This document shows positions 27,602 through 48,256 of a stretch of DNA of 64,000 bases, piece by piece. The notes beneath the pieces are model-generated. The model was given only the letters and a program-made list of their open reading frames with translations, ran no database searches and was not told the origin of the DNA. Made by a program: the position numbers and the translations under genes. Source of the stretch: Kineosporiaceae bacterium SCSIO 59966 (GTDB taxonomy: Bacteria; Actinomycetota; Actinomycetes; Actinomycetales; SCSIO-59966); assembly GCA_020881835.1 (NCBI GenBank), contig CP052876.1, positions 2,480,001-2,544,000 of the forward strand, in the 5' to 3' direction. Positions within the stretch are counted from its first letter, which is position 1, and the number at the start of each line of letters is the position of its first letter.

Positions 27602-27975
27602 TCGGGCACTCCTGATCGCAGGCGGGTGCGCGCCGGCGGGCAGCGCACAGGCCCCGCACCGGGGTCCGGCCGGGGTCCGGGACCAGGGTACGTCGGGCCC
27701 TCGGACGCCGTGGTGCAGCGTCCCACGGCCCTCACTCTCTGCCACATACACCATCACGCACCGTGGACGCAACCGGACACTCTGCGCACTCGGGTACGGT
27801 CCCGCGGCGTCGCTCCACCCGCGAGCGATATGTCCCGTCCGTCCCCCAACGGAAGCGAAGCCAGATGTCCCGCACCTGGAACGGCAGCTGACCCACCGCG
27901 CCTGACCGGTGACGCACCGGCGCCCCCGGCTCAACTCGCCCCGTCGACGAACCGATGACCAGAAGGAGCACTCCG
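27602..27975. other. Intergenic region with a remnant of the SLH gene's 3' end
   Basis: There is no gene in this 374-bp gap between the divergent mfd and SLH genes. At 27873-27892 the 20 bases CACCTGGAACGGCAGCTGAC are identical to the last codons, stop and next base of the SLH gene (about 29617-29636). They can be read in the same frame as TWNGS-stop after ATGTCCCG. This suggests a former upstream copy that was deleted, or a recombination boundary. No riboswitch was recognised. Confidence 0.6.
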
Positions 27976-31682: not shown

Positions 31683-31736
31683 ACACGCCCCCTCGTCGAT
31701 CCCGCACTTCGCCCGCGGGACACCGCCGGCGTCGCT

Positions 31737-31743
31737 TACGTTA
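31737..31743. promoter_or_regulatory. Overlapping divergent -10 boxes
   Basis: TACGTT (forward, 31737-31742) and TAACGT (reverse, 31743-31738) overlap. They would give leaders of about 43-45 nt for the lipoprotein gene on one side and the deacetylase-glycosyltransferase pair on the other. Confidence 0.5.
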
Positions 31744-31792
31744 GGCGGGTCGGAGCACCGGCGGAGGCGGAACGACGGATGTCGGGAGACAG

Positions 31793-32830
31793 GTGAGCCA
31801 GGACCGGTCGAGGACGAGCCGCGAGGTGGTGGCCGCCGTCCGCAGGCTGCTCGTGACCACCACCGCCCTGGTCCTGGCGGCGGCCTGCACACCGACCGGC
31901 ACGTCCGTCGCGGAACAGACAGCCGAGTCGGTCCGCGCCGGTGAGCCGGGGACGACAGGCAGCGCGGCGCCGGCGGCGTCGCCGACGCGGCGCCAGGCGT
32001 TCCTGGAGCCCGTCCCCGCCGACCCGGTTCTCGACCAGCGCTCGGACCGGATCGCCGCCCACCTCGGCGCCGGTCCGTGGTCGGCCAACGTCACCCAGTA
32101 CGGCGTCCCGGTGTACGACGCCGAGGGCGCTCCGCTGCGGGACGTCGAGTGCCTGCGCGACTGGGGGCACTGCCGGCTGGAGGCGGCCCCGGTCCCCGTG
32201 CCGGACGACGCGGCCCCCAGCACCGGCACGGACGCGGCGATGGCCGTCGTCGACCGCCGGACGGGCACGAGCTACGAGTTCTGGCAGGTCCGTCGGGACG
32301 GACCGTCCACGTGGGTGACGTCGTGGGGCGACGTCGTCGACCTGTCCCCCGACGTCCCGTCGGTCAGCTCGGCGACCGGCGCCGGACTCGGCCTCGTCGA
32401 CGGCCTGGTCACCCCGCAGGAGATCGCCTCCGGGACGATCCGCCACGCCCTGGTGTTCTCCACCGACAACGCCTGCGCCGGGGACTTTCGGGCCCCGGCG
32501 ACGAAGACGGACGGCACCAGCGACCGAGACGACTGCATCCCGCAGGGCGCGCGCGTCCAGCTGGACCCGGCGGTCGACCTCAGCGCGATCGACGGGCTGT
32601 CACCGGCCGAGCTCGCGGTCGGTCGTGCCCTGCAGCAGTACGGCGCGTACGCGCGGGACAACGGCGGCACGCCGGTCGCCCTCATCTTCCAGACCCCGGC
32701 CGCGGACGACGACCGGCTCGCGCGGGCGGGCCTGGCCGCGGACTACGACCGGCTCGCCCGGCTGCCGTGGGACCGGCTGCGCGTGCTGGCGTCGTGGGAC
32801 GGCGGCCCTCCGGCGTCCGCGGGCCGGTGA
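31793..32830 (+). CDS. Lipoprotein with the same unrecognised domain as the SLH protein
   Basis: The 345-aa protein has a lipoprotein signal (VRRLLVTTTALVLAAAC, Cys about 30). The rest, from LDQRSDRIAAHLG to the C-terminus, aligns with the C-terminal domain of the SLH protein: [92 protein letters not shown]. Paired cysteines (CAGD, DDCIP) are conserved in both and may form a disulfide. It contains no SLH repeats. Its function is unknown. GGGAGA precedes the GTG. Its 3' end overlaps the next convergent gene by 88 bp. Confidence 0.8.
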   Translation: MSQDRSRTSREVVAAVRRLLVTTTALVLAAACTPTGTSVAEQTAESVRAGEPGTTGSAAPAASPTRRQAFLEPVPADPVLDQRSDRIAAHLGAGPWSANVTQYGVPVYDAEGAPLRDVECLRDWGHCRLEAAPVPVPDDAAPSTGTDAAMAVVDRRTGTSYEFWQVRRDGPSTWVTSWGDVVDLSPDVPSVSSATGAGLGLVDGLVTPQEIASGTIRHALVFSTDNACAGDFRAPATKTDGTSDRDDCIPQGARVQLDPAVDLSAIDGLSPAELAVGRALQQYGAYARDNGGTPVALIFQTPAADDDRLARAGLAADYDRLARLPWDRLRVLASWDGGPPASAGR

Positions 32831-33939
32831 CCTGCGGCCTCCTGGTACAGCTGCAGCAGGCCGGCCAGCCACGTCCCGGTCCCGAACCGCTCCTGCACCC
32901 GCCGGCGCGCGGCGGCCCCCATCGCCGCGGCCCGCGCAGGGTCCGTCAGCAGGTCGCTGACGGCCGCGGCGAGCGCGACCGGGTCGCCGGGCGGGACGAG
33001 GACGCCGGTCACCCCGTCGAGCACCACCTCTGGCACGCCGCCCACCGCGCTGGCCACCACCGCCCGGCCGGCGGCGCCGGCCTCGGCCAGGACCGTCGGC
33101 AGGGCCTCGGTGAACGTGGGCAGGACGACGAGGTCACTGCCGGCGAGCAGCGCGGGGACGTCGTCGCGGGCACCGGCGAACGTCACCGCGTCGCGCAGGC
33201 CGAGCTCGCCGGCCTGCCGGCGCAGCGCGGGCCCGGCGTCCCCGTCCCCGACGACGAGCAGGTGCGCGTCCGGGGCCCGGCGGCGCACCGCCGGCCACGC
33301 CTCGAGCAGGACCCGGTGCCCCTTGGGTGGTCGCAGCGCCGCGACGACGGTCACCACCCGGGCCCGGGCCGGCACACCCAGGCCCGCCGGCAGCGGCCGC
33401 GGTGCCGGGTCGGCGAACACGCCCAGGTCGACACCGTTGGGCAGCACCGTCCAGTTGGCCCGGGGCCGGTACCGCTGGGCGAAGGACCGGCGGCACGCCT
33501 CGGACACGAACACGGTGGCTCGCGTCGTCCCGGCGCAGGCGACGGCGAGCCGCTCCTTGACCGCCTCGGAGCCGGTGAGTCCTCCGGCGAGCTGGTGAAA
33601 GGTGCACACGACGGGACGACCGGCGAGCCGCCCGGCTACCGGCGCGAGCACGGACGCGTGCTCGAGGTGGGCGTGCACGACGTCGCAGCCGGACCGACGC
33701 ACCTCGACGGCGAGCCGGTACGCGGCGGCGGGGTCGGCGAGCCTGCGTGCCCCGAGGAACCGTGGCGGCAGACCGGCCCGCGACAGCGCACCGGCCAGGG
33801 ACGCCTGAGGCCCGTCCGGCGGCCCCAGGGACACCACGTCGACGTCCAGCCCGGCCTGGCGGGCCGGCCCGGCCAGGTGCACGAGCAGGTTCTCGGCACC
33901 GCCGACCCGCAGCGAGTCGATGACGACGAGCACCCTCAC
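32743..33939 (-). CDS. Glycosyltransferase family 4 (GT-B)
   Basis: The 398-aa GT-B enzyme starts RVLVVIDSLRVGGAENLLVHL, then VVHAHLEHASVLAPVAG. In the donor domain it has ALRPPKGHRVLLEAW and LPTFTEALPTVLAEAGAAGRAVV (EX7E-type). The GTG overlaps the stop of the upstream glycosyltransferase (GTGA). The last 28 residues (rich in His, Ser, Arg) are encoded opposite the end of the lipoprotein gene and look like a non-conserved extension. The sugar is unknown. Confidence 0.88.
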   Translation of the reverse strand: MRVLVVIDSLRVGGAENLLVHLAGPARQAGLDVDVVSLGPPDGPQASLAGALSRAGLPPRFLGARRLADPAAAYRLAVEVRRSGCDVVHAHLEHASVLAPVAGRLAGRPVVCTFHQLAGGLTGSEAVKERLAVACAGTTRATVFVSEACRRSFAQRYRPRANWTVLPNGVDLGVFADPAPRPLPAGLGVPARARVVTVVAALRPPKGHRVLLEAWPAVRRRAPDAHLLVVGDGDAGPALRRQAGELGLRDAVTFAGARDDVPALLAGSDLVVLPTFTEALPTVLAEAGAAGRAVVASAVGGVPEVVLDGVTGVLVPPGDPVALAAAVSDLLTDPARAAAMGAAARRRVQERFGTGTWLAGLLQLYQEAAGHRPADAGGPPSHDASTRSRSHGSRASRS

Positions 33940-35138
33940 CGAGCCACGTCCACGGCGCCGGGCCGCTGCCGGGCCAGGTAGGCGGCGGCGACCCGGCCGG
34001 CGACGTCGTCCCAGGCCGACCCGTCCCCGGTGGCGGCGTACCCGGCGTCCCCGAGGTCGGTCGCCGTGGCCGGGTCCTCGAGCAGCCGCAGCATCCCGGC
34101 GGCCAGGGCGGCCGAGTCTCCCGGCGGGCAGACCACGCCGGAGCGTCCGTGGCCGACGGCGGCGGCCAGGTCCCCGACGTCCGTGGTCACCACCGGACGC
34201 CGCAGGGTGTGCGCCAGGTGCACCACCCCGCTGGCGTTCGCGACGAGGTAGGGAGTGACCAGGGCCCGGGCGCCGGCCACGAGCGCGGGCACGTCCGCGA
34301 CGGGCACGTACCCGGCCCGCAGCTCGACACCGGGAACCGTGGCGCACCGGCGACGCAGCGCGTCGAGGTCGACGTCGACGCACGGCCCGGCGACGACGAC
34401 CCGCGTGCCCGGACGCCGGGCGACGACGAGGTCGACGGCGTCCAGCAGCAGGTCCAGCCCCTTGTACCTGGCCAGGGCGCCGAAGAACAGCAGGTACTCC
34501 CCGGTCGCCGCCGGGCCGGGGTCCTCCCCGGCGTAGATGCCCTCGTCGCCGTGCGGCACGACGACGGGCTGCCCGGCGTCGGGGAAGGCGGCGACGAACC
34601 CCTCCCGCGAGCGCTCGCCGAGGACGAGGACGACGTCGGTGCCCGCGTAGGCGCGCCGCAGCGACCGCAGCAGCAGCCCCCCGGACTTGTACAGCCCGCC
34701 GTCACCGTCCTCGGTGAACGGGACCGGGGTGTGCGCCACGTCGCCGAGCAGGCCCGGTCGGCCGCCGGCGCGCACCGCCCGCCCCACGGCCAGCGCCGCC
34801 CACGCGTCGACGGGAAAGCGCCACTCGGAGAGCTGGACGACGTCCGGCCGGGTCCGCCGGACGTGCCGGACGACGCGCCGCCACGCCTCGACGTGCCGCA
34901 CAGCGCGCCAGACCCGGCGCACCCGGCGCAGCGGCGCCGGGAGCGCGGCACCCGCGCTCGGGTGCCAGGTCGGGAGCACGGGCAGCATCCGGACGCCGGG
35001 ATGACGAGCGGCCAGCTCCGGCCCGCGACCGGTGAGGAGCTCGACCTCGTGGCCGAGGCGTGCCAAGGCGTCGGCCAGCTGCAGCGTCCACTGGAACAGG
35101 CCGCCGGCCGGACTGTGCTCGACGAGCAGGAACCTCAC
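33936..35138 (-). CDS. Glycosyltransferase family 4 (GT-B)
   Basis: The 400-aa GT-B enzyme begins VRFLLVEHSPAGGLFQWTLQLA. Its central segments include VVQLSEWRFPVDAWAAL and VVVPHGDEGIYAGE. The donor side includes LLFFGALARYKGLDLLLDAVD and TPYLVANASGVVHLAHTLRRPVV. The GTG at 35138 is chosen because it lies 7 nt after TAGCCT (35151-35146), giving a leaderless mRNA for this gene and the overlapping GT4 gene that follows. Upstream and divergent is the GT2 gene. Confidence 0.88.
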   Translation of the reverse strand: MRFLLVEHSPAGGLFQWTLQLADALARLGHEVELLTGRGPELAARHPGVRMLPVLPTWHPSAGAALPAPLRRVRRVWRAVRHVEAWRRVVRHVRRTRPDVVQLSEWRFPVDAWAALAVGRAVRAGGRPGLLGDVAHTPVPFTEDGDGGLYKSGGLLLRSLRRAYAGTDVVLVLGERSREGFVAAFPDAGQPVVVPHGDEGIYAGEDPGPAATGEYLLFFGALARYKGLDLLLDAVDLVVARRPGTRVVVAGPCVDVDLDALRRRCATVPGVELRAGYVPVADVPALVAGARALVTPYLVANASGVVHLAHTLRRPVVTTDVGDLAAAVGHGRSGVVCPPGDSAALAAGMLRLLEDPATATDLGDAGYAATGDGSAWDDVAGRVAAAYLARQRPGAVDVAR

Positions 35139-35260
35139 CGTGCCGAGGCTAGGCACCTCCGGCGTGGGAGGCGGCCGTTTCGACTGAACCCGTGACCCGC
35201 GGTGACGACTTCCGCCGAATCGGCTGCGCGGCGCCCCGACCGGCTGCGAGCGTGGTCGTC

Positions 35261-36493
35261 ATGGACCTGGCGGACCGCGCCGCGGCGCTCACCTGGGCCG
35301 CTGCGGCAGCGGCGGCCTGGACGCACCTCGGCTACCCCCTGCTGATGCGCCGCGCCGCGGCGGGCGCCACCGGCCCGGCGGTCGCCGGCGGTCGACCCGA
35401 CGACACGCTGCCGGCCGTCACGGTGCTCGTGGCCGCACTCGACGAGGAGCAGGTCATCGGCGAGAAGGTGCGCGACTGCCTGGCGCAGGACTACCCGCCC
35501 GCGCTGCTCGAGGTGCTCGTCGTCGCGGACGGGTCCACCGACCGCACCGCTGAGCTGGCCCGGGCCGCGGGTGCCCGGGTGCTCACCGCCCCGGTGCCGG
35601 CCGGCAAGAGCGCCGCGGTCAACCGGGGGGTGCTCGCAGCCACCGGGGAGCTCGTCTGCCTCACCGACGCGAACTGCTCCCTGGCCCCCGGTGCCCTGCG
35701 CGCGCTGGCCGTCGCGGCAGCGGACCCGCGGGTGGCGGTGGTGAGCGGCGCCAAGGTCGTCGTCGGTGCCGGGTCCCACGGCTCCGGGGAAGGCCTGTAC
35801 TGGCGGCTGGAGTCGGTGGTCAAGGCCGGCGAGTCCCGGTTCGGATGCGTCATGGGCGCCCCCGGCGAGGTGTGCGCGGTGCGGCGCTCGACGTTCCGGC
35901 CAATTCCCCCCGGGGTCCTCAACGACGACTACCACCTGGTCTGCGACGCCCTGCTGCACGGTCACCGGGTGGCCTACGCCCCCGCGGCCCGGGCGGTCGA
36001 GACGGTCTCGGCCAGCGCGGCCGACGAGATGGAGCGGCGCACCCGGATCGCCGCCGGCACCTGGCAGACCTCGCTGCGGCACCTGGGCCTGGCCGACCCC
36101 CGGCGCGGGATGACGGCGCTCGCGTTCGGGTCCCACCGGCTGCTGCGCAACCACGTCGTCCCGCTCCTGCTGCCCGGGCTGCTGGCGACGTCCGCGGCGG
36201 CGGCGTCCCGGCACCGCACCGCCCGCTGGTTGCTGGCCGCGCAGGTGCTCGGGTACGGGGCCGGGGCGGCCGGCTGGGTCACCGGTCGGCCCGCCCTCGG
36301 CGCTCCGACGCAGTTCCTGCTGACGAACGCGGCCGCCGTCCGCGGCGCGGTCCGGCTGGCTGCTCGGCGGCAGCCGACGGTGTGGCGCCGGGCCGCGCGC
36401 GGTCCCTGGGTACCGGCGGCTCCTGCGCCGGCAACCTCAGGGAAGCCACTGCAGGAGCCCCCGGAGGAGCGCACGAGAGAGCTGGTGGCCTAG
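35261..36493 (+). CDS. Membrane glycosyltransferase family 2
   Basis: The 410-aa GT2 enzyme has a short N-terminal hydrophobic segment, then the GT-A domain with VTVLVAALDEEQVIGEKV, VVADGSTDRTAELA, and the metal-binding acidic motif LTDANCSLAPGALRAL. Processive-type residues are seen as LNDDYHLVCDALL. Two or three C-terminal membrane segments follow (HVVPLLLPGLLATSA, WLLAAQVLGYG). Such enzymes build glycan chains at the cytoplasmic face. ATG 35261 has only a weak ribosome site. Its TAG shares a base with the GTG of the next gene. Confidence 0.88.
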   Translation: MDLADRAAALTWAAAAAAAWTHLGYPLLMRRAAAGATGPAVAGGRPDDTLPAVTVLVAALDEEQVIGEKVRDCLAQDYPPALLEVLVVADGSTDRTAELARAAGARVLTAPVPAGKSAAVNRGVLAATGELVCLTDANCSLAPGALRALAVAAADPRVAVVSGAKVVVGAGSHGSGEGLYWRLESVVKAGESRFGCVMGAPGEVCAVRRSTFRPIPPGVLNDDYHLVCDALLHGHRVAYAPAARAVETVSASAADEMERRTRIAAGTWQTSLRHLGLADPRRGMTALAFGSHRLLRNHVVPLLLPGLLATSAAAASRHRTARWLLAAQVLGYGAGAAGWVTGRPALGAPTQFLLTNAAAVRGAVRLAARRQPTVWRRAARGPWVPAAPAPATSGKPLQEPPEERTRELVA

Positions 36494-37173
36494 TGCACGC
36501 ACTGCGGACCTCCGTCGTCGTCGGGAGCCTCGCCACGGTGACCGGGCTCGCGCTCGGCGTCCCGGTGGCCCTGGGCCAGCCGGCGTCCTGGACGGCGCAC
36601 GCGACCGTCCTGATCCTGCCGGTGACCCCGGGGGCGAACCCGGACGCGCTCGCCGGCTACTACGACACGCTGAGCCGTGGCAACGTCCCGGCCACCTACG
36701 TGGCCCTGCTGGACGCCGGCGACCCGGCACCGTTCCTGGACACGGAGCTGGACCTGGCCGGCGGTGAGCTGGAGGGGCGCTCGCTGGCGTTCCAGGTGGT
36801 CACCGACACCAGCGTCATCGACGTGGCGGCCACCGCGGCCAGCCCCGAGGACGCCGAGGAGACCGCCGACGCCGCCGCCCGGTGGGCGCAGGAGTCCATC
36901 GCGGAGATGGGTTCGCCGTACCAGGGGCGGGTCGTCGGGACGGCGGAGGGCACGGCGAGCCTGTCGTCGATCGCGACCGGCTCGATGGTGACCGTCATGG
37001 CCCTGGTCGCCCTGGCGGCCGGGGTCGTCGCCCAGCAGGTCGCCTACCGGCTGCTGCGTCGACGGGTGGCCCCGGACGTGGTCGGACACCTCGTCGGGCC
37101 CGTCCCGCAGACCCCGGCCTCCCGCCGCACCGACCGGGTCGCCGTCACCGGCGGCCCGGACGACGGTGGCTGA
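36493..37173 (+). CDS. Wzz-like polysaccharide chain-length/co-polymerase protein
   Basis: The 226-aa protein has two terminal membrane segments (SVVVGSLATVTGLALGVPVAL and MVTVMALVALAAGVVAQQVAY) around an outer domain of about 130 residues. That is the two-TM layout of Wzz/YveK-type co-polymerases. It lacks a tyrosine-kinase domain and the usual proline-rich second TM is only partly matched. Next to the Wzy gene it probably sets chain length or supports export. The GTG start overlaps the GT2 stop by one base (TAGTG), and the stop overlaps the next start by 8 bp. Confidence 0.7.
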   Translation: MHALRTSVVVGSLATVTGLALGVPVALGQPASWTAHATVLILPVTPGANPDALAGYYDTLSRGNVPATYVALLDAGDPAPFLDTELDLAGGELEGRSLAFQVVTDTSVIDVAATAASPEDAEETADAAARWAQESIAEMGSPYQGRVVGTAEGTASLSSIATGSMVTVMALVALAAGVVAQQVAYRLLRRRVAPDVVGHLVGPVPQTPASRRTDRVAVTGGPDDGG

Positions 37174-39166
37174 CCTCCTCACCAGCCCCGTGCTGGCCGT
37201 GCTGGTTCTGCTCCTGCTGACCGCGGCTGCGACGGTCGCCGTGCTGCGCCCGCGCGTCCTGCTCGCCGGCTACGCGGTGGCGGTCGTGACAAACGCCAGC
37301 ACGGTCGTCGGCCCGCTCGGTCCGCTGAGCATCCAGGTCCTGCTCATCGGGCTGCTGCTGGCGGCCGTCCTCGTCGGCTGGTTGCGCGGCCGACTGCGAC
37401 CCCGCTGGTCGGTGGTCTACCTGCTGCTCGTCGTCTACGCCGCGGTCCGGCTGCTGTCCCTGGTCTCGGCGCTCGACACCGCGGTGTCGACGGCGGCGCT
37501 GGTCGAGGAGCTCAAGCACGTCGTGCCGTTCCTGGCCGCCGCCGTGCTGATGTCCTCCACCGGGCGCGCGTCAGCCACGATCCGCACGACCGCGATGGCC
37601 GCGGTCGGGGCCGCGGCGCTGCTGGCCGGTCTCAGCCTGCTGCGGGAGACGCTGCTGCCGGGGGCGGACTTCGGCGGATTCGTCAACGTCCCGGTCGGCG
37701 CGGACGTCGGCTCGGCCACCGAGCGGCACTCCGGCCCGGAGTCGGACCCCAACTTCTGGTCCCGGCACCTCGTCCTGCTGCTGCCGGTGGCGCTGGCGCT
37801 GGCCACCGACCGGCGCCTCGGCGCGTGGCGGCACGCCTGGTGGGTGGCCGCGCTGCTGATGGCGGGCGGGCAGTACCTGACCCAGTCCCGCGGCGGCCTG
37901 CTGGCCACGATGCTGGCTGCCGCGGTGTGGCTGGTCCTGTCCGGGGCGTCGTCCCGGCGACTCATGGTCGGGGCGCTGACCGCCGTCGTGCTCGTCGTCG
38001 CCTTCCCCGGCACGAGCACCCGGCTGGCGACCCTGACCATGGTCGAGCCGGGTACGCCGAGTCGCACCGACCAGTCGCTGGTGGACCGGGCGACCGTGCA
38101 GCAGATCGCGCTGCGGATGGCGGCGGACCACCCGGCGACCGGCGTCGGGGTTGGCGGGTTCGTGGCAGCGCAGCCGGAGTACCGCCGACTGACAGAGACG
38201 CCGCTGTCCCAGCCGCTGGCCCCGCACAACATCTACCTCGAGATGCTGGCCGAGAGCGGGGTGGCCGGGCTCGCCGGCTGGCTCGTCCTCATCGGCGGGA
38301 CCCTGGTCGTCTCGGCCGACACCGCCCGGCGGCGCCGGCGCCTCGGGTTGCCGGCGCCCCGGGCGCCGGACCACCTCGCCCGGGGCGTCACCGCGGGGCT
38401 GTTCGGGTGGGCGGTGTCCTCGCTGTTCCTGCACCTGGCCGGGTTCTCCGTGCTGCTGCTCGTCGTGGCGATGGTCGTCGCCGCCGACGTGCGGACGCGG
38501 GAGCTCGACGCCTCCGGCTTCCGCGTGGTCCGCGGCCCGGGGCTGGCCGTCCTCACCCGGCGAGTCGCGCGGGCCTCGGGCGTCGGCGTGCTCGCGGCCG
38601 CGGTCGCCGCCACCGTGCTCGTCGTGGCCAGCGGCGAACGGTGGGCCGCGACGACGACCGGGGTCATCGTCGGCGGTCCCGCGGGTGAGACCGCGTACAC
38701 CCGGGACGTGCTGTCCCGCCCGCAGGTGATCGCGACGTTCAACGCGCTGGCGTCCCGCCCCGGGCTGCTGCACCAGGCGGCCGAACGGACCGGGATCGAC
38801 CCGGCCCTGGCGGCTCAGGCCACGGTGTCCGCGCGCCACCGCTTCGGCAGCGACGTCATCGAGCTGACGACGACGCACCAGGACCCGGTGACCGCGAGCC
38901 GGCTCGCCTCGGCGGCGGGTCGCCAGCTGCTGCAGGACGTGGCGTTCAGCCAGGACCTCTACCGGTACGCGATACGCACCAGCGAGCCGGAGCTGCAGCG
39001 CACGACGACCCGTCCGGTGGGCCTCGCCGTGGCCTGCGCCGCCAGCGTGCTGGCCGCCGGCCTCGGTGGGCGCCGGCTGCTCACCCTGACGAGGCCGCTC
39101 GCTCGGCGATCGCCTCGGCGCACCTGCGCGTCCCCACCGGCGTCCCCGGCGCCAGGTCGTACGTGA
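37166..39166 (+). CDS. Wzy/O-antigen-ligase-type polymerase fused to a Wzz-like domain
   Basis: The 666-aa protein has about 10-12 membrane segments in the first 460 residues. Wzy/ligase landmarks are ESDPNFWSRHLVLLLP, LTQSRGGLLATML and APHNIYLEMLAESGVAGLAGW. After residue 480 a new membrane segment is followed by an outer domain (TTTGVIVGG to SEPELQRTTTRP) and a last membrane segment (VGLAVACAASVLAAGLGG), a Wzz-like arrangement. The polymerase and chain-length factor thus appear as one chain. The last 28 residues lie opposite the convergent dehydrogenase gene and look non-conserved. Confidence 0.8.
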   Translation: MADLLTSPVLAVLVLLLLTAAATVAVLRPRVLLAGYAVAVVTNASTVVGPLGPLSIQVLLIGLLLAAVLVGWLRGRLRPRWSVVYLLLVVYAAVRLLSLVSALDTAVSTAALVEELKHVVPFLAAAVLMSSTGRASATIRTTAMAAVGAAALLAGLSLLRETLLPGADFGGFVNVPVGADVGSATERHSGPESDPNFWSRHLVLLLPVALALATDRRLGAWRHAWWVAALLMAGGQYLTQSRGGLLATMLAAAVWLVLSGASSRRLMVGALTAVVLVVAFPGTSTRLATLTMVEPGTPSRTDQSLVDRATVQQIALRMAADHPATGVGVGGFVAAQPEYRRLTETPLSQPLAPHNIYLEMLAESGVAGLAGWLVLIGGTLVVSADTARRRRRLGLPAPRAPDHLARGVTAGLFGWAVSSLFLHLAGFSVLLLVVAMVVAADVRTRELDASGFRVVRGPGLAVLTRRVARASGVGVLAAAVAATVLVVASGERWAATTTGVIVGGPAGETAYTRDVLSRPQVIATFNALASRPGLLHQAAERTGIDPALAAQATVSARHRFGSDVIELTTTHQDPVTASRLASAAGRQLLQDVAFSQDLYRYAIRTSEPELQRTTTRPVGLAVACAASVLAAGLGGRRLLTLTRPLARRSPRRTCASPPASPAPGRT

Positions 39167-40166
39167 GGTCGCGGCCCTCGGCGAGCACGGCGTCGACCGC
39201 GGACTCGACCCGGGCCGCGCGCTCGCCGTCCCCCAGGTGACGCAGCATGAGGGCGGCCGAACGGATCAGACCCACCGGGTTCGCCCGGTCCTGGCCCGCG
39301 TGGCGGGGTGCCGAGCCGTGCGCGGCCTCGAACACCGCGGCGTCCGGGCCGTAGGCGGCTCCGGGGGCCAGGCCCACCCCCCCGGCGACGGCGGCCGCCA
39401 GGTCGCTGAGCACGTCCCCGTACAGCATCCCGGTGAGCAGGACGTCGAAGGCGGCCGGTCGGCGGACCAGCTGGGCGCACGCGTTGTCGACGAGGGCGTC
39501 GTCGAGCTCGACCCCGCCAGTGGTCCCGGCGCCGGGCCGTTCCGCGGCGACCTGCCGGCACACCCGCAGGAACAGCCCGTCGGTCTCCCGCATCACCGTC
39601 GCCTTGTGGACGACCGTGACCCGGCGCCGCCCGTGCGCCTGCGCCCACCGCAGAGCGAACTCAGCGGTGCGACGGACGGCGGCCGGGCTGAACGCCTTGA
39701 GCGACACTCCGGACGCCGAGACGTCGTCGGCGCCGGCGGCGCGCAGCGCCTCGACCGCGGCGGGTGAGCCGGGCGCCAGCTCCCAGCCGGCGTAGAGGTC
39801 CTCACCGGTCTGCCGGACGACGACGACGTCGAGCGGTGGGGCGCTTCCGCCGGCGACCGGCACCGCCCGTACCGGGCGGAGCTGGACGAACAGCCCGAGC
39901 TCGCGGCGCAGACCCGTGTTCGGTGAGCGGAAGCCGCCGTCACGGGGAGTCGACACCGGCCCCTTCAGCACGCAGCCCGTCCGCCGAGCCGACTCCACGG
40001 TGCCGGCCGGGACGGCGGAGGTCTCGCCACGGTCCAGAGCACTGCTGCCGAGATGCCTTGTGTCCCAGTCGATGTCGGCGCCGACGGCGTCCAGGACGAG
40101 AAGGGCGGCAGCGGTCACCTCGGGGCCGATCCCGTCGCCGGGGACGAGGGTGACGAGGTGGCCCAT
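39081..40166 (-). CDS. Isocitrate/isopropylmalate/tartrate-type dehydrogenase
   Basis: The 361-aa beta-decarboxylating dehydrogenase has VPGDGIGPEVTAAALLVLD, the substrate arginine regions (SPNTGLRRELGLFVQLRPVR), VVVRQTGEDLYAGWE, HKATVMRETDGLF (usually HKAN), the Asp cluster MLYGDVLSDLAAAVAGG, and AVFEAAHGSAPRHAG. It oxidises a 2-hydroxy acid with NAD(P) and usually decarboxylates it. It is not next to leu or citrate genes but inside the glycan island, so a special substrate is likely. The ATG lies 6 nt after TAGGAT (40178-40173), a leaderless start. Confidence 0.85.
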   Translation of the reverse strand: MGHLVTLVPGDGIGPEVTAAALLVLDAVGADIDWDTRHLGSSALDRGETSAVPAGTVESARRTGCVLKGPVSTPRDGGFRSPNTGLRRELGLFVQLRPVRAVPVAGGSAPPLDVVVVRQTGEDLYAGWELAPGSPAAVEALRAAGADDVSASGVSLKAFSPAAVRRTAEFALRWAQAHGRRRVTVVHKATVMRETDGLFLRVCRQVAAERPGAGTTGGVELDDALVDNACAQLVRRPAAFDVLLTGMLYGDVLSDLAAAVAGGVGLAPGAAYGPDAAVFEAAHGSAPRHAGQDRANPVGLIRSAALMLRHLGDGERAARVESAVDAVLAEGRDLTYDLAPGTPVGTRRCAEAIAERAASSG

Positions 40167-40246
40167 GCCCGAATCCTACGTTTGCCCCGCGCGCCGCACC
40201 GGCCGTTGTTACGTTGCTGGAGACGGCACGACGGCAGGAGGCTCCG

Positions 40247-40978
40247 GTGGCCCAGACAGCAGCGCGCAGGCCCCGTTCGGCGGAGATGAACCCAGGTCCG
40301 GGGTTTCGGTTGCGCCGGTCCGACGACCGCCCCGGGGAGGTGTTCGTCGACGCGTTCCGCGCCTACCCCACCCCCGACGTGTCGGACATGATGAACCGCC
40401 TGTACACGATGTGCGTGGCGATCCAGCCGATGACCGACCCCCGACTGTCCGTGGTGGGACCGGCGTGCACGGTCAAGGTCTTCCCCGGCGACAACCTCAT
40501 GGTGCACAAGGCGCTCGACGTCGCCCGCCCGGGCGACGTCCTCGTCGTCGACGCCAGCGGGTCGACCATGACCGCCGTCCTGGGCGACCTGGTGTGCACG
40601 AAGGCCCGCCACCGTGGGATCGCGGGCGTCGTGGTCGACGGGCTGATCCGGGACCTGCCCGGCATCGCCGCGCTCGGCGACTTCCCGGTCTTCGCTCGCG
40701 GGGTGACCCCGATCGGGCCGCTGCACCGCGGCCCCGGGGAGATCAACTACCCGGTGAGCTGCGGCGGGATCGTCGTGCACCCGGGCGACCTCGTCGTCGC
40801 GGACGCCAACGGCGTGGTCGTCGTCCCGCTGGAGAACGTCAAGGAGGTGCACGACCGGCTCGAGGGCCGGCGCCGGGACGACGCGGCGTACGCGGCCTCG
40901 GTGGCCCGGGGCGCGTTCTCGAACGGCTGGGTCGACGACGTGCTGGACGCCGGTGGGCTCACCGTCGATGCGCTCTGA
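40247..40978 (+). CDS. RraA-like family protein (HMG/4-hydroxy-2-oxoacid aldolase fold)
   Basis: The 243-aa protein has the RraA/HMG aldolase pattern: FPGDNLMVHKALDVARPGD, the Mg-site motif GVVVDGLIRDLPGI with the Arg-Asp pair, SCGGIVVHPGDLVVAD and GVVVVPLENVKEV. Family members split 4-hydroxy-2-oxo acids or act as RNase E regulators in enterobacteria. Next to a 2-hydroxy-acid dehydrogenase and ATP-grasp ligases an aldolase or decarboxylase role is more likely. AGGAGG lies 6 nt before the GTG at 40247. TACGTT boxes lie at 40177 and 40210. Confidence 0.85.
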   Translation: MAQTAARRPRSAEMNPGPGFRLRRSDDRPGEVFVDAFRAYPTPDVSDMMNRLYTMCVAIQPMTDPRLSVVGPACTVKVFPGDNLMVHKALDVARPGDVLVVDASGSTMTAVLGDLVCTKARHRGIAGVVVDGLIRDLPGIAALGDFPVFARGVTPIGPLHRGPGEINYPVSCGGIVVHPGDLVVADANGVVVVPLENVKEVHDRLEGRRRDDAAYAASVARGAFSNGWVDDVLDAGGLTVDAL

Positions 40979-42230
40979 CCGGCGTCCGATGGCCGGCGGA
41001 CCGGCACGGCCGGCGCTGGCCGGGGGCCCGGACGCCGTCGTCCTGGGCGGCAGCTCGAACTCCCTCGCCGTGGCCCGGTCCCTGTCCCGGCAAGGGGTCC
41101 GGGTGCACGGCCTGTCCGACGGGGCGGGCGGCTCGCTGCTGCGGTACTCCCGGCACGTCGCCGGGTTCGTCGAGGCGACGTCGGCGTCCCGGGCACCCCA
41201 GGTCTGGGACGACTGGCTGGACCGTGCCCCGGACGGCGCGGTGCTGCTGCCGTGCAGCGACATCGCGCTGGAGTACCTGGTCACCCGCAGGCCCGCGCTG
41301 ACTGCCCGCGGGCTGCGGCCGCCGGAGTCCGACGACGACGTCACCCTGGCGATGCTCGACAAGCAGCAGACCTACCAGCTGGCCCGGGCGGTCGGGGTCC
41401 GAGCCCCGCACACCGCCACCCTGGAGGCCGGGGAGGACCTCGACCGGGTGGCCGCGAACTTCACCTTCCCCTGCGCGGTCAAGCCGCGTCACTCCCACCG
41501 GTTCGCCCAGGTGTTCGGTGTCAAGGCCGTCGTCGTCCGGGACGTCGACGAGCTGCGGCGCACGCTCACCGCGATCGACGAGGCCGGTCTGTCGGTGCTG
41601 CTCACCGAGATCGTGCCGGGCCGGGACGACGCCTACTGCAGCTACTACACCTACCTCACCCCGGACGGCGAGGCGCTGCTGCACTTCACCAAGCGCAAGC
41701 CGCGGCAGAACCCGCCCGGGTTCGGGCTCGGCACGCTGCACGAGAGCGACTGGGTGCCCGAGGCGGCCCGCGAGGGGCTTCGCTTCTTCCGCGGCGTCGG
41801 GCTCGCCTGGATCGGCAACGTGGAGTTCAAGGTGGACGCCCGGGACGGCGGCCTGACCCTCATCGAGTGCAACCCGCGGTTCACCGCCGCGGACAGGCTC
41901 GTGCAGAACGCCGGCGTGGACCTTGCGGGTGTCGCCTACCGCCGGGCGGTCGGCCTCGACGTCCCGCCGGTGGCCGACTTCGCCACCGGCGTCCGGCAGT
42001 GGCACCCGTGGGAGGACGCCCAGGCGTTCTGGGCGTACCGGTCGGCCGGACAGCTGTCCACCGGCGACTGGGTTCGGTCCCTGGCCCGGCGCCAGCACCT
42101 CCCGGTGTTCGACCGCGACGACCCCGCACCGACGCTCGTGCACGACGCGCGCTTCCTCCTCGGCAAGGGCCGGGGCGCCGCCCGCCGAGCGCGGCGCGCG
42201 GTCACCGCTGCGGCCCGGCCCCGGGCCTGA
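40968..42230 (+). CDS. ATP-grasp carboxylate-amine ligase
   Basis: The 420-aa ATP-grasp protein begins with a preATP-grasp domain (VVLGGSSNSLAVARSLSRQG). ATP-binding segments are MLDKQQTYQLARAVGVRAP, CAVKPRHSHRF, VLLTEIVPGRDDAYCSYY, and the Mg ligands in GNVEFKVDARDG...LIECNPRFT. It resembles carbamoyl-phosphate-synthase-like ligases that join a carboxylate to an amine. It overlaps the RraA-like stop by 11 bp. In a glycan island such enzymes can attach amino acids to uronic acids or make the substituent. The substrate is unknown. Confidence 0.85.
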   Translation: MRSDRRPMAGGPARPALAGGPDAVVLGGSSNSLAVARSLSRQGVRVHGLSDGAGGSLLRYSRHVAGFVEATSASRAPQVWDDWLDRAPDGAVLLPCSDIALEYLVTRRPALTARGLRPPESDDDVTLAMLDKQQTYQLARAVGVRAPHTATLEAGEDLDRVAANFTFPCAVKPRHSHRFAQVFGVKAVVVRDVDELRRTLTAIDEAGLSVLLTEIVPGRDDAYCSYYTYLTPDGEALLHFTKRKPRQNPPGFGLGTLHESDWVPEAAREGLRFFRGVGLAWIGNVEFKVDARDGGLTLIECNPRFTAADRLVQNAGVDLAGVAYRRAVGLDVPPVADFATGVRQWHPWEDAQAFWAYRSAGQLSTGDWVRSLARRQHLPVFDRDDPAPTLVHDARFLLGKGRGAARRARRAVTAAARPRA

Positions 42231-43440
42231 GCTCGCCGGGGGACGCGCCGGGCACGGCGTCGTCGACGGGACGGCGCGGGGTCGCCAACGGCTGGCACGG
42301 GCTCTCCCGCATCAGCGTCTCCACGACGGCCCGGGCGACCGGCACCCGCGTGGCCACCTCGCGGACCTGGTAGTGGTAGAGCAGCCCTGGCGTCGAGTTC
42401 ACCTCGATCACCGCGCCGCCGGCGGAGCACAGCGACCGGGACGGGTCCGGGGTGATGAGCTCGACGGCGGCCCACCGCAGGCCCAGGGCGTCGACCGACC
42501 GCAGGACGTCGGCCTCCAGCGGCCCGCCCACCGTCACCGTCTCGTGGTCGTGGCCGGCGGTCGCACTGGCCGCCCCCTTGACCGTCACCCGGCACCCGGC
42601 AGCCGGCACCGAGGTGAGCCGCAGCCCGGCGTGCCGTACCGCGAGCTGGGTGTCGAGGTCCGGCGCGATCCCCCACTGCCCGTCCGCCCCGTGCGCGAGG
42701 ACCCGGCGCCAGTTCTCCGCCACGACGAGCGCCGCGACGCTCGAGACCCCGTCCCCGACGACGACGGGCCGGTACCGCCGGACCGCGCCGACCACGCGGC
42801 CGTCGAGGACCAGCACCCGAAGCTCCGCGCCGTCGAGCTGCTCCTCGACGAGGACGTCGCGTGACCACCGGCCCGCGGCCACCAGCGCGCGGACGAGCTC
42901 GCCGGGGGTGCGCACGTCGCACACGACGCCCAGCCCGCCGCCGGTGTCCCGGGCCGGCTTGACGACGCAGCGCCCGGTCGCGGCGAGCAGGTCGAAGGCC
43001 GGCCCGGTGGCGTGCGGGCCGACGCGCACCGCCCGCGGGGTCGGGACCCCGCTGTCCCGCAGCAGCCGGCGGGTCGCCCACTTGTCCCCCGCCGTGGCCA
43101 GCGCCTCCTGACCGTCCAGCGGCACGAGGTTCGAACCGAGCTCGACGCAGTGGCCGTCGCGGTCCAGCCGCAGGGTCCCGCCCGGGCCCAGCTCCACCCG
43201 GGCGCCGGCGGCCTGGGCGGCGTCCCGCCACACGGCGGCGTAGGCGCCGGTACGGGCGGTGTCGAGCAGCGGGGTGGTGAGCCGCGCGGACCGGCGCATG
43301 CCCAGCAGCACCCCGACGGTGCGCGGGTCGAGCACGGTGGCGGGCCACAGCAGCCGGTGCCGGGGACCGTCCACCGGGTCGCCGGCCAGGGCGAGCCGGA
43401 CGAGCCACCGGTGCACCCACCGGCTCGTCGCTGCCCTCAC
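42202..43440 (-). CDS. ATP-grasp ligase, cyanophycin-synthetase/GshF-like
   Basis: The 412-aa protein has the ATP-grasp landmarks ALATAGDKWATRRLLRDSGVPTP, CVVKPARDTGGGLGVVCDV, VLVEEQLDGAELRVLVL and AVIEVNSTPGLLYHY. It is closest in style to the ATP-grasp part of cyanophycin synthetase or GshF, which form amide bonds between amino acids. No Mur-ligase domain is present. It is the second ATP-grasp protein of the island and is convergent with the first (29-bp overlap). The GTG overlaps the Wzx stop (GTGA), tying it to the export operon. Confidence 0.82.
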   Translation of the reverse strand: MRAATSRWVHRWLVRLALAGDPVDGPRHRLLWPATVLDPRTVGVLLGMRRSARLTTPLLDTARTGAYAAVWRDAAQAAGARVELGPGGTLRLDRDGHCVELGSNLVPLDGQEALATAGDKWATRRLLRDSGVPTPRAVRVGPHATGPAFDLLAATGRCVVKPARDTGGGLGVVCDVRTPGELVRALVAAGRWSRDVLVEEQLDGAELRVLVLDGRVVGAVRRYRPVVVGDGVSSVAALVVAENWRRVLAHGADGQWGIAPDLDTQLAVRHAGLRLTSVPAAGCRVTVKGAASATAGHDHETVTVGGPLEADVLRSVDALGLRWAAVELITPDPSRSLCSAGGAVIEVNSTPGLLYHYQVREVATRVPVARAVVETLMRESPCQPLATPRRPVDDAVPGASPGELRPGAGPQR

Positions 43441-44927
43441 CGGACCGCCTGCCGGGACGTCGCCGACCGGACCACCCCGACGATGTCGTCCAGCGCGGCC
43501 GGTGCGAGCAGGCGCAGCAGCAGCACCGCCGTGCCCGCGCCGGCGACCACGGTGGCCGCGAGCCGGCCCGGCCCGGGTGCCATCAGGCTGGTGACCGGTA
43601 CCGCCCCGAGCAGGGCACCGGTCGCCGTGACGGCTCCGGGGACCAGCGCGCCCAGCAGCGCCCGGCCGGAGAGCCGGACGAGCCGGTGCACGAGGACGAG
43701 CCGGACCACCGCGTTGACCACGCTCACGACGAGCTGGGCGCCCGCGATCGCCACCAGGCCGTGGGGGGCCGCGGCGAGCAGGGCCAGGACGCGCAGCAGC
43801 ACCACCGGCACGAGCACCCGGGCCAGCACACCGGGCCGGCCGATGGCGGGGAACACGTCGCCGGAGGCGTAGGCGATCGCAGACACGCCCATCGCGAGGG
43901 CGATCAGCGCCATCGGCCCGGCCGCGCCGGCCCAGGTGTCGCCGAGCAGCACGCCGGTGAGGTCCTCGGCGACGACGACCAGGCCGGCCGCCGCGGCGAA
44001 CGCCGGCACGGTGATGAGCCGCAGGGCGCGCAGGACGACGGAGCCGAACTCCTCGGCGTGCACCGCACGCACCCGGGAGAACAGCGAGAACGCCACGCTG
44101 GAGACGATCCAGTAGATGTTCGCGAGGAAGAGCTCGGGGACGCGGACGGCGAGCAGGTACAGCCCGAGGTCCTCGGGACCCAGGCGGTTGCCGACGACCA
44201 CGTAGTCGGCGTTCTCGCCGACCGCGGTCAGCAGCCGGATGGCCAGGACGGCGCCGCCGAACCGAAGCAGGGTGGCCGCCACGGACCGGTCGATCCTGAG
44301 CCGCGGCACGAACCGGATGGCCCACCACGTCGCCACCGTGCCGACGAGCTCCCCGGCGAGCAGACCACCCACCAGCGACCACGCCCCCGCCCCGCCCACC
44401 GCGAGCCCGATCGACACGACGGCCCGCACCCCGGCCCGGGAGATCTCGACGACCGCCCGGCGCTTGAACCGCAGGTCCCGGCGCAGCACGGCGTCGGGCA
44501 CCTGTCCGGCGCCGCGCAGCAGCAGGTAGCCGAACAGCACCTGCAGGAGCAGCACGTCGTCCGGGACGCCGAACAGCGCGGCGACGAGCGGGGCCGAGGT
44601 GACCGCGGTGACGGTGAGCACGGCCGCGACCAGAAGGTTGAGGGTGAACGCCGTCCGGATCCGCTCGCTGACCCCGGTCTCCTGCTCGTAGACGACGGCC
44701 GCACCGACCCCGAGGTCGAGACCGGTCTCGACCAGGGCGATGAGGGTCAGTCCGGCGGCCACCACCCCGAACTGCTCGGGCACGAGCAGCCGGGCCATCG
44801 CCAGCGTGGTGACGAAGACGACGAGCTTGCTGCCGGCCAGGGACACCACCGCCCAGCCGACGGTGCGAGCGGCCCGCCCGGCGCTGAGCGACGTCTGCCC
44901 GGCCGGCGGCGCGGCGGTGTCAGCCAC
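43437..44927 (-). CDS. Wzx-type polysaccharide flippase (MOP superfamily)
   Basis: The 496-aa protein has about 12-14 membrane segments. Family features at the start are VSLAGSKLVVFVTTLAMARLL and PEQFGVVAAGLTLIALVETG, then a typical PDAVLRRDLRFKRRA loop. It should flip undecaprenyl-linked repeat units across the membrane for Wzy. The GTG at 44927 overlaps the stop of the initiating transferase by 8 bp, and its stop overlaps the ATP-grasp start. Confidence 0.9.
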   Translation of the reverse strand: MADTAAPPAGQTSLSAGRAARTVGWAVVSLAGSKLVVFVTTLAMARLLVPEQFGVVAAGLTLIALVETGLDLGVGAAVVYEQETGVSERIRTAFTLNLLVAAVLTVTAVTSAPLVAALFGVPDDVLLLQVLFGYLLLRGAGQVPDAVLRRDLRFKRRAVVEISRAGVRAVVSIGLAVGGAGAWSLVGGLLAGELVGTVATWWAIRFVPRLRIDRSVAATLLRFGGAVLAIRLLTAVGENADYVVVGNRLGPEDLGLYLLAVRVPELFLANIYWIVSSVAFSLFSRVRAVHAEEFGSVVLRALRLITVPAFAAAAGLVVVAEDLTGVLLGDTWAGAAGPMALIALAMGVSAIAYASGDVFPAIGRPGVLARVLVPVVLLRVLALLAAAPHGLVAIAGAQLVVSVVNAVVRLVLVHRLVRLSGRALLGALVPGAVTATGALLGAVPVTSLMAPGPGRLAATVVAGAGTAVLLLRLLAPAALDDIVGVVRSATSRQAVR

Positions 44928-46452
44928 CGGCACCGCGGACCACCTGGCCGGCGGTGCGCAGCAGGAGCTTGCAGTCGTTCCAGAGCGACCAGTTCTCCAC
45001 GTAGTAGTTGTCGAACCGGGCCCGGTCCATGATCGAGGTGTCACCGCGCAGACCGGCCACCTGCGCCGCCCCGGTCAGGCCCGCCGGCACCCGGTGGCGG
45101 GCCATGTAGAGCGGGAAGCGGCGGGCGAACTCCTCGACGAAGTACGGCCGTTCGGGCCGTGGCCCGACCAGGCTCATGTCACCGCGCAGCACGTTCCACA
45201 GCTGGGGCAGCTCGTCGAGGCTGGTGCGCCGGATGAACCGGCCGACGGGCGTCAGCCGGTCGTCGTGGCTGATGTTCCAGCGCTGGGCCGACTCGGTCTG
45301 GCCGGCCGGACGCAGGGAGCAGAACTTCAGCAGCACGAAGCAGCGGCCGTCCAGCCCTACCCGCTCCTGGCGGAACAGCACGGGGGACCCGATCCCGACC
45401 CGGACGGCGAGCGCGACGGCGGCGAGCAGCGGCGCCAGGACGACGAGCGCTGCCGCCGAGGCGGCGACGTCGAGGACCCGCTTGAGGCGCCACATCTGGG
45501 TGCGGAACGGCGCCCGCCGGATGCGCACCAGCGGAGTGCCCCAGACTGTCTCCATGTCGCGGGTGGTGGGGCTCAGCTCGTAGAGCCGGGGGACGAGGAG
45601 GATCTCGCAGGCGAGCCGGTCGCAGGCGCGCAGCAGGTCCACCAGCTGGGCCTCGCGGATGGACGCGTAGGCGACCACGACCTCGTCGATCCGCTGGTCG
45701 ATGATGACGTCGACGAGGTCACTGCTGCGTCCCAGGTGCGGGACCGGACGTCGCTCGGCCGGCAGCAGCGGGTCGTCGTCGAGGAACCCGACCGGCAGCA
45801 GGCCGGTCTCGGGGTGCTCGAGGAACGTGGTGGCGAGCTGCCCGGCGAGCTCGCCGCCGCCGAGCACGAGGGTGCGGTGGGTGACCCGGCCGCGACGCCG
45901 CGCCGCCCGCAGGAACGCGTAGACGACGGCTCGCCCGAGGGTGGCGAGGGCCGCCATCGCCCCCGCGGCGAGCAGCGTGGCCCGGCCGGCCCACCCGTCG
46001 AGGAAGGCGCCGAGGCCGGTGACCACCGCGCCGGCGATGAGGGCCCGGCCGACGAGACCGGCGACGTCGTCGAGGACGGACGGGGTGAGCCGGTTGCGGT
46101 AGAGCCCACCGACGGCGAACAGGGCGATCGTCAGGGCGCCCATCGTCAGCACCCGACGGGAGACCTCCTCGACGACGACCGCCGCCCCGGCGACCGCCAG
46201 CACGTCCACGGCGACGAGCAGCGCGGGCCACCACGGGGTGAAGTGCCCCTGCCAGGGCGGGCGAGGGGCCAGCGGTCGGCGGGTGAACCAGCCGGGACGG
46301 CTCCCGGTGGCCGGTGCCGACGTCGGCGCCGGGGACCGGCGAGGCGCGGGCACCTGCGTCGTCCGGGGGGTGGCGACGTCCGGGACGCCCGCCTGCTCGA
46401 CGTCCGCCTGCTGTACCGGGAGGTCATGCCCCGGCCCCGTGGTGCTCTCCAT
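44920..46452 (-). CDS. Initiating sugar-phosphate transferase (WcaJ/WbaP type)
   Basis: The 510-aa polyprenyl-phosphate hexose-1-phosphate transferase has a Pro-rich cytoplasmic N-terminus and four membrane segments. A CoA-binding-like domain follows (LVLGGGELAGQLA, IDQRIDEVVVAYAS). The C-terminal bacterial sugar transferase domain has KRVLDVAASAAALVV, SPVLFRQERVGLDG, TSLDELPQLWNVLRGDMSLVGPRPERP and GLTGAAQV. It puts the first sugar phosphate on undecaprenyl phosphate and so starts the repeat unit. GAGGAGG lies 8 nt before ATG 46452. Two palindromes (46536-46583) lie upstream. Confidence 0.93.
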   Translation of the reverse strand: MESTTGPGHDLPVQQADVEQAGVPDVATPRTTQVPAPRRSPAPTSAPATGSRPGWFTRRPLAPRPPWQGHFTPWWPALLVAVDVLAVAGAAVVVEEVSRRVLTMGALTIALFAVGGLYRNRLTPSVLDDVAGLVGRALIAGAVVTGLGAFLDGWAGRATLLAAGAMAALATLGRAVVYAFLRAARRRGRVTHRTLVLGGGELAGQLATTFLEHPETGLLPVGFLDDDPLLPAERRPVPHLGRSSDLVDVIIDQRIDEVVVAYASIREAQLVDLLRACDRLACEILLVPRLYELSPTTRDMETVWGTPLVRIRRAPFRTQMWRLKRVLDVAASAAALVVLAPLLAAVALAVRVGIGSPVLFRQERVGLDGRCFVLLKFCSLRPAGQTESAQRWNISHDDRLTPVGRFIRRTSLDELPQLWNVLRGDMSLVGPRPERPYFVEEFARRFPLYMARHRVPAGLTGAAQVAGLRGDTSIMDRARFDNYYVENWSLWNDCKLLLRTAGQVVRGAGG

Positions 46453-46535
46453 CAACCCGGCCTCCTCGTCGTGTCCTGATGACACGGGAGGAGCCGGGGG
46501 CAGGCCCAGGTGCTTTACCTCCGCTTGACCCTTAT

Positions 46536-48112: not shown

Positions 48113-48256
48113 TCGCCCAACTCGCCCCACCCTCCCCCGCGACCAGCCGAGCCCCTCTTCGTAGTAATGGCGTTCTGGGAGGGGGTTCGCATAGAACGTC
48201 CTCCTGTGTACACGTCTCGGGCTTGGTGTCCCAACGCGATGAACAGGAGGACGTCC

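Follow-up and report, generated by a model that had tools for sequence, protein, structure and literature searches.

The DNA stretch analyzed here, referred to throughout as the window, comprises 64,000 nucleotides of Kineosporiaceae bacterium SCSIO 59966 (GCA_020881835.1, contig CP052876.1, positions 2,480,001-2,544,000 of the forward strand), a member of an actinobacterial lineage whose genome is a single contig of 3.1 Mb and which has no same-family relative among the genomes searched. Embedded in a glycan locus of this genome is a cassette of four genes that encode a dehydrogenase, an RraA-like protein and two ATP-grasp ligases. This composition, first noted in an initial annotation made from the letters of the window, is confirmed by our analysis: each of the four is an open reading frame that shows actinobacterial codon bias and clearly matches a protein family. 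The dehydrogenase gene (39081-40166, minus strand) represents the actinobacterial form found in such cassettes and encodes an isocitrate/isopropylmalate-type enzyme of the PF00180 family (Pfam E = 4e-82). It is followed, in the divergent orientation and at a distance of about 80 bp, by the gene for an RraA-like class II pyruvate aldolase of a cassette-specific subfamily (40247-40978, plus strand; PF03737, E = 3e-49). The most likely start of the latter, judging from the sequence, is the GTG at 40247 because an AGGAGG motif is located 5-6 nt upstream and the resulting protein fits the N-terminus of its relatives. ATP-grasp ligase 1, which resembles PurK, PylC and carbamoyl-phosphate synthase, is encoded at 40953-42230 on the plus strand, with alternative starts at 40953, 40968 or 40989, and ATP-grasp ligase 2, of the cyanophycin synthetase G domain/glutathione synthetase type, at 42202-43440 on the minus strand with a GTG start; both were assigned from family matches and predicted models. 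The two ligase genes run toward each other and share positions 42202-42230.

The cassette lies between the gene for a Wzy_C-domain polymerase/ligase (37166-39166, plus strand, convergent with the dehydrogenase gene; PF04932, E = 8e-25) and those for a Wzx-type MOP flippase (43437 to about 45044, minus strand, with an uncertain start, possibly 44927; PF13440, E = 2e-61) and a polyprenyl-phosphate sugar-1-phosphate transferase (PGT; 44920-46485, minus strand; PF02397, E = 2e-62, TIGR03025 above the cut-off). All three of these domains, PF02397, PF13440 and PF04932, are found within 9.5 kb, which identifies the locus as Wzx/Wzy-dependent. From left to right, the order is a polysaccharide deacetylase (30759-31892, minus strand; PF01522, E = 3e-21), a GT4 glycosyltransferase (GT; 33936-35156, minus strand; PF13692), a GT2 glycosyltransferase (35192-36493, plus strand; PF13641/PF00535), the Wzy_C protein, the four cassette genes, Wzx, the PGT, and the housekeeping genes pth and L25. 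The placement of the four genes in the middle of a Wzx/Wzy locus, as originally described, thus holds, as does the overlap of ATP-grasp 2 with Wzx, the start of the former sharing a few bases (GTGA) with the stop of the latter. Other elements of that description require qualification: ATP-grasp 1 overlaps the end of the RraA gene with a start at 40953 or 40968, and the common promoter zone suggested for the divergent dehydrogenase and RraA genes (40167-40246) is a putative feature read from the sequence.

The set that the initial annotation had singled out as worth looking for in other genomes recurs in at least 18 loci from three phyla. In a scan of 85,000 species, of which the best 80 loci were kept, the query was an alignment of the window RraA with eight catabolic RraA proteins, the inclusion of which means that the search was not biased toward cassettes. 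At least 18 loci (L126-L143) came out on top at 49-67% identity, separated by a gap from the others, with at most 47%. When the window ligases were used as queries, ATP-grasp 1 was found to adjoin RraA in all 18 top loci and ATP-grasp 2 to be present in 16, and neither gene was detected in any of the 62 lower RraA loci (Fisher p = 3e-18 for this division). The two loci that seemed to lack ATP-grasp 2 are interrupted by a contig end: whole-genome searches located the cassette ATP-grasp 2 on another contig in both genomes (L127 and L133), next to a PF00180 dehydrogenase, so that all 18 genomes encode both ligases, 16 of them on the same contig. The carriers belong to Actinomycetota (Solirubrobacterales, Acidimicrobiaceae, Geodermatophilus sabuli and other Actinomycetes), Planctomycetota (Pirellulales, Phycisphaerales and others) and Pseudomonadota (Hyphomicrobiales, Anderseniella, Nitratireductor, Rhodovulum robiginosum, Thiotrichaceae and others); many of the records are metagenome-assembled genomes, and independent assemblies agree.

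A reverse scan of 199 genomes from one alphaproteobacterial order, seeded with the ATP-grasp 1 profile alone, yielded matches with E below 1e-100 in 11 genomes, nine of them new. In seven of these nine, RraA, ATP-grasp 2, ATP-grasp 1 and an Ldh2 dehydrogenase are encoded contiguously, with a flippase-like gene next in six of the seven; of the remaining two, one encodes ATP-grasp 1 about 7 kb away from RraA-ATP-grasp 2, and the other combines both ligases and Ldh2 with extra ATP-grasp 1 copies but without RraA in the stretches examined. Closer to the window, searches of its own order (119 genomes, with ATP-grasp 1 and ATP-grasp 2) and class (394 genomes, with ATP-grasp 1) detected remote family members and no other cassette. 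The ATP-grasp 2 homologs in that order were rejected as orthologs, being frames of about 590 amino acids that resemble N-acetylglutaminylglutamine (NAGGN) synthetases. A class-wide search for RraA together with the dehydrogenase produced no linked pair except in L116, where an RraA gene and a partial match to the dehydrogenase are about 3 kb apart, and in the broad ATP-grasp 1 alignment no stretch was conserved enough to serve as a query for scanning the collection. Among 112 Geodermatophilaceae genomes, G. sabuli is the only carrier; together with the spread across phyla, this single occurrence suggests horizontal transfer.

The pairwise distances among the RraA, ATP-grasp 1 and ATP-grasp 2 proteins of 16 loci are correlated (r = 0.72, 0.68 and 0.84; permutation p = 1e-4), which supports, without proving, a joint function because part of the correlation comes from shared species history. 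Conserved synteny in at least 18 further genomes, the independent reverse sample and this co-variation refute the explanation that the four genes are unrelated neighbors, i.e., a surplus isocitrate dehydrogenase (IDH), a catabolic RraA and two unrelated ligases brought together in a glycan locus by chance. Its probability is negligible in our estimate, even though RraA homologs outside the cassette branch and dehydrogenase homologs mostly belong to catabolic clusters in the plasmid records examined; plasmid searches recovered homologs of both proteins in metabolic settings only.

The dehydrogenase slot of the cassette is occupied by three unrelated families. All six actinomycetotal cassette genomes, including that of the window, encode a PF00180 enzyme, and relatives of the window protein (58, 51 and 43% identity) are found beside the same genes in L129, L126 and L130, respectively. 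In Planctomycetota, a beta-hydroxyacid-type dehydrogenase (PF03446 with DUF1932, PF09130) is encoded directly upstream of RraA in four of four loci, and in Pseudomonadota, a PF02615 dehydrogenase (malate/lactate/sulfolactate/ureidoglycolate type) follows ATP-grasp 1 in all eight non-truncated loci of the RraA scan; these assignments come from Pfam matches of two representatives per group and from similarity for the remainder. Such replacement strongly indicates that the pathway includes a hydroxy/keto acid step that depends on NAD(P). In the window protein (276.8 bits to PF00180), the isocitrate-type substrate residues S81, N83, R87, R97, R118, K188, D251 and D255 are retained and are invariant among four cassette PF00180 members; we take them to correspond to S, N, R, R, R, K, D and D of the Escherichia coli IDH. 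The cofactor positions are occupied by Arg-His, as opposed to Asp-Ile in the NAD-dependent IDH 6LKY, and by Arg-His, Arg-His and Lys-Leu in the three relatives, suggesting that the window enzyme uses NADP. We considered and rejected a role as the housekeeping IDH: the genome also encodes a monomeric IDH and a second PF00180 protein. The window dehydrogenase scores 289 bits against the IDH model PRK09222 (cut-off 509) and is below the cut-offs of all other IDH/LeuB/tartrate models as well.

The RraA-like protein of the window belongs to PF03737 (167.8 bits, cut-off 24.5). A D-X20-R-D motif is invariant in 19 of 19 cassette RraA proteins and aligns with D102, R123 and D124 of the 4-hydroxy-4-methyl-2-oxoglutarate/4-carboxy-4-hydroxy-2-oxoadipate (HMG/CHA) aldolase 3NOJ, with which the cassette proteins share the PF03737 fold family. 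In the aldolase, D102 and D124, jointly with R123, bind the metal and stabilize the pyruvate enolate. Eight sampled catabolic neighbors keep R-D and have E or G in the position of D102. R123 itself has been described as essential (PMC5065237). Conservation of the complete motif makes it likely that the cassette RraA performs pyruvate-enolate chemistry, that is, aldol addition or cleavage, in either direction, or oxaloacetate decarboxylation. Phylogenetically, the cassette proteins are separated from 21 other RraA proteins by a branch of length 1.0 with 100/100 support, and among the cassette proteins those of Planctomycetota group together, as do those of Pseudomonadota. Unlike the HMG/CHA aldolase, which functions in gallate/protocatechuate catabolism, members of this separate branch have motifs of their own (GPLHRGPGEI) and are linked to ligases instead of aromatic catabolism.

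Neither ligase passes the cut-off of a characterized family. The predicted model of ATP-grasp 1 (predicted local distance difference test, pLDDT, 88.8) matches PurK and PylC (Z 23-25) and, over about 290-330 residues, the wider set of PurK, PylC, the Bacillus licheniformis L-amino-acid ligase and carbamoyl-phosphate-synthase-type chains (Z 21-25). It shares a fold with PurK, PylC, the L-amino-acid ligase and a carbamoyl-phosphate synthase half domain at only 13-17% identity, scores 43 bits against the carbamoyl-phosphate-synthase-like group PRK12767 (cut-off 316) and, in contrast to PurK, PylC and carbamoyl-phosphate synthase, is encoded in a neighborhood without purine, pyrrolysine or pyrimidine genes. 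The model of ATP-grasp 2 (pLDDT 84.4) is closest to the G domain of cyanophycin synthetase (Z 27.5, root-mean-square deviation 4.1, 314 residues), followed by glutathione synthetase fusions (Z 23.1); CphA1, NAGGN synthetase and GshF/GshAB are its closest relatives in both fold and sequence. However, cassette ATP-grasp 2 proteins are single-domain, of about 360-410 amino acids, lack the Mur-ligase, GNAT or GshA parts of these relatives and are encoded beside RraA and the dehydrogenase. Accordingly, the window protein (length 411) scores 134 bits against cyanophycin synthetase (cut-off 877), matching the ATP-grasp region only, and 120 bits against NAGGN synthetase (TIGR03103; cut-off 569), matching profile positions 236-527 of 547. 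Residues K137, K177, E291, E305, N307 and R309 of ATP-grasp 1 and K160, R221, E345 and N347 of ATP-grasp 2 are invariant and likely have ATP or metal roles; from their sequences and models, both ligases are expected to activate carboxylates as acyl phosphates.

The connection of the cassette with glycans extends beyond the window. Genes for a PGT, a GT, a flippase, Wza or a deacetylase are present in the examined flanks of 13 of the 18 loci, in all three phyla, so the homologs are not confined to places apart from glycan genes; two of the other five loci are contigs of just 3.8 and 6.3 kb. The closest counterpart, L129, shows the identical order dehydrogenase-RraA-ATP-grasp 1-ATP-grasp 2-Wzx, with a flippase in the same place that is 53% identical to that of the window. 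Collectively, conservation in three phyla, co-variation of the core genes and the glycan neighbors strongly support the part of the original interpretation under which the four genes make up one pathway linked to glycan assembly. The remaining part, a hydroxy, keto or amino acid joined by an amide bond to the repeat unit or a peptide, fits the protein families and the predicted models.

Our interpretation, to which we give a little better than an even chance, is that the cassette is responsible for the biosynthesis of a small acid with which a glycan of the Wzx/Wzy type is decorated through amide linkage. The scheme builds on the conserved gene set, the catalytic residues retained in RraA and the dehydrogenase, the predicted ligase folds and the glycan-gene context; from these we infer the order of the steps, the direction of the aldolase reaction, the identity of the acid and its attachment to the glycan. 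The dehydrogenase would convert a hydroxy acid to a keto acid or the reverse, with NADP as the probable cofactor in this organism. RraA would act as a metal-dependent pyruvate-enolate aldolase or decarboxylase on substrates at the pyruvate/oxaloacetate level, making or trimming a keto acid with two or three carboxyl groups and a branched or extended skeleton. In the manner of glutathione and cyanophycin synthetases, ATP-grasp 2 would then form an acyl phosphate from a carboxylate and link it to an amine. A second amide bond, made by ATP-grasp 1, would attach the group to the lipid-linked repeat unit, at an amino sugar, a uronic acid or an amino acid, ahead of flipping by Wzx. A more specific version, which we put forward tentatively and would sooner doubt than accept, is that the pathway has been transferred as a unit among the three phyla, with the RraA aldolase, an interchangeable dehydrogenase and the two ligases building a new hydroxy-polycarboxylate pseudo-peptide for installation on lipid-linked repeat units.

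Several observations weigh against glycan decoration. Two proteobacterial loci, L137 and L139, contain no recognized glycan gene in several kb of flank, and the glycan context of L131 is equivocal. In Alphaproteobacteria, the gene after the dehydrogenase encodes a flippase-like polytopic protein with weak SpoVB/Wzx matches, and profile comparison of these proteins with the actinobacterial Wzx gave no significant result. The dehydrogenase gene of the window is divergently transcribed. Finally, the cassette is sporadic, so its phylogeny provides no reading of function. L137 and L139 are the main reason why we retain the alternative of a free, diffusible cassette product, an amide or pseudo-peptide such as a hydroxy-acid metal chelator, a compatible solute or an inhibitor, exported by a MOP-type exporter, with the proximity to glycan genes reflecting shared export or clustering of surface functions. 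RraA, a dehydrogenase and two ligases would suffice for a soluble product, as in the case of E-64 (PMC12568646), and the relatives of ATP-grasp 2, NAGGN and cyanophycin synthetases, yield soluble or storage products. We nevertheless consider this alternative unlikely, if worth serious attention, given the PGT/GT/Wzx/Wza context of the 13 loci in three phyla and the position of the window cassette inside the Wzy-Wzx interval, with ATP-grasp 2 overlapping Wzx.

Distant relatives of ATP-grasp 1 bear on another possibility, namely, that the product is a short peptide or acyl-peptide whose attachment site is not a glycan but a cell-wall peptide or a protein. One such relative adjoins an amino-acid racemase in Deinococcus, another, in Acetoanaerobium, adjoins MurE-like and Asp/Glu-racemase-like reading frames (assigned from translations, not by hidden Markov models), and pseudomurein gene sets include carbamoyl-phosphate-synthase-like ATP-grasp proteins (PMC11915815). 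No racemase, Mur ligase or peptidase recurs beside the cassette itself, however, and we regard this possibility as improbable. Still less probable, in our assessment, is that RraA and the dehydrogenase have a nucleotide sugar or a glycan intermediate as their substrate, for example, an oxidized sugar to be decarboxylated or cleaved, and that the ligases serve to amidate a uronic acid, in which case the acid would be part of the sugar itself. ATP-grasp ligases do amidate capsule uronic acids in Campylobacter jejuni (PMC11800379), and sugar-acid dehydrogenases are known among PF03446 and PF02615 members, but the window dehydrogenase keeps the isocitrate-type carboxylate-binding residues, which suit a small polycarboxylate better than a nucleotide sugar.

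Two characterized systems resemble the proposed decoration pathway in part. The C. jejuni enzyme Cj1438, an ATP-grasp-type amidoligase, puts an amide on the capsular polysaccharide, but it is a TupA-like ATP-grasp fused to a GT2 domain that transfers serinol-P/ethanolamine-P onto glucuronate, without RraA, a dehydrogenase or a second ligase (PMC11800379). The E-64 pathway shares with the cassette the logic of making a small dicarboxylic acid first and then employing an ATP-grasp and a second amide-forming enzyme; it differs in being fungal, in deriving epoxysuccinate from an iron- and 2-oxoglutarate-dependent oxygenase, in having an ANL-type second ligase and in its soluble product (PMC12568646). 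We found no paper that combines RraA, ATP-grasp and polysaccharide, and no description of the cassette, in literature coverage that excluded the ATP-grasp amidoligase operon survey of Iyer et al. 2009, which may mention part of the set. Searches for RraA with a flippase returned incidental papers only, e.g., one on a Vibrio capsule in which rraA/menA is the locus boundary.

RraA-like proteins are present in all kingdoms. Their role outside aromatic catabolism has been noted as unknown (PMC5065237). For one RraA subfamily, the genetic partners are now clear and are conserved in three phyla, and the exchange of three unrelated dehydrogenase families restricts the chemistry to a step on a hydroxy/keto acid, offering three independent handles on the substrate. 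As the carriers include the deposited strains Geodermatophilus sabuli DSM 46844 and Rhodovulum robiginosum DSM 12329, the question is directly testable. Should the product be a glycan substituent, it would represent a surface decoration of a new class, predictable from its gene signature, and, to our knowledge, the cassette RraA would be the first RraA-fold enzyme in glycan assembly.

In addition to the cassettes, we noticed several related gene arrangements. The gammaproteobacterial genome of L134 carries a second ligase pair with a flippase-like gene (L234, 927-4039), probably amounting to two cassettes. A gene resembling TauE/SafE-type sulfite exporters is oriented divergently from the cassette in three related proteobacterial loci in which we saw no flippase gene, L136 (121-672), L137 (8577-9323) and L139 (8603-9346); along with the PF02615 members that match sulfolactate dehydrogenase best, this makes a sulfonated acid conceivable. 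Distant ATP-grasp 1 relatives (26-31% identity) are encoded in PGT/Wzy_C/polysaccharide-deacetylase loci of other Actinomycetes (L073, L074, L075, L079 and L081; about 9-11 kb each). In L074, L075 and L079, the gene directly adjoining the relative encodes a protein similar to flavin monooxygenases (PF13738/PF13434), and RraA is absent; these loci may represent another type of ligase-based glycan decoration. A relative with 27% identity on Priestia megaterium plasmids (L053, 6028-10222) is accompanied by genes for a GT4, a PIG-L deacetylase and a kinase-like protein in the vicinity of spore-coat genes, and the group might specify a glycan of the spore surface.

Within the window, the protein encoded between GT2 and the Wzy_C gene (36490-37173) has no Pfam or NCBIfam match and, by its position, might be a chain-length/Wzz-like protein. 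On the right, the glycan locus is bordered, past pth and the L25 gene, by an IS110-family transposase (48167-49603). At the left of the locus lies a gene for a protein with S-layer homology (SLH) domains (27955-29634), which often bind pyruvylated wall polymers.

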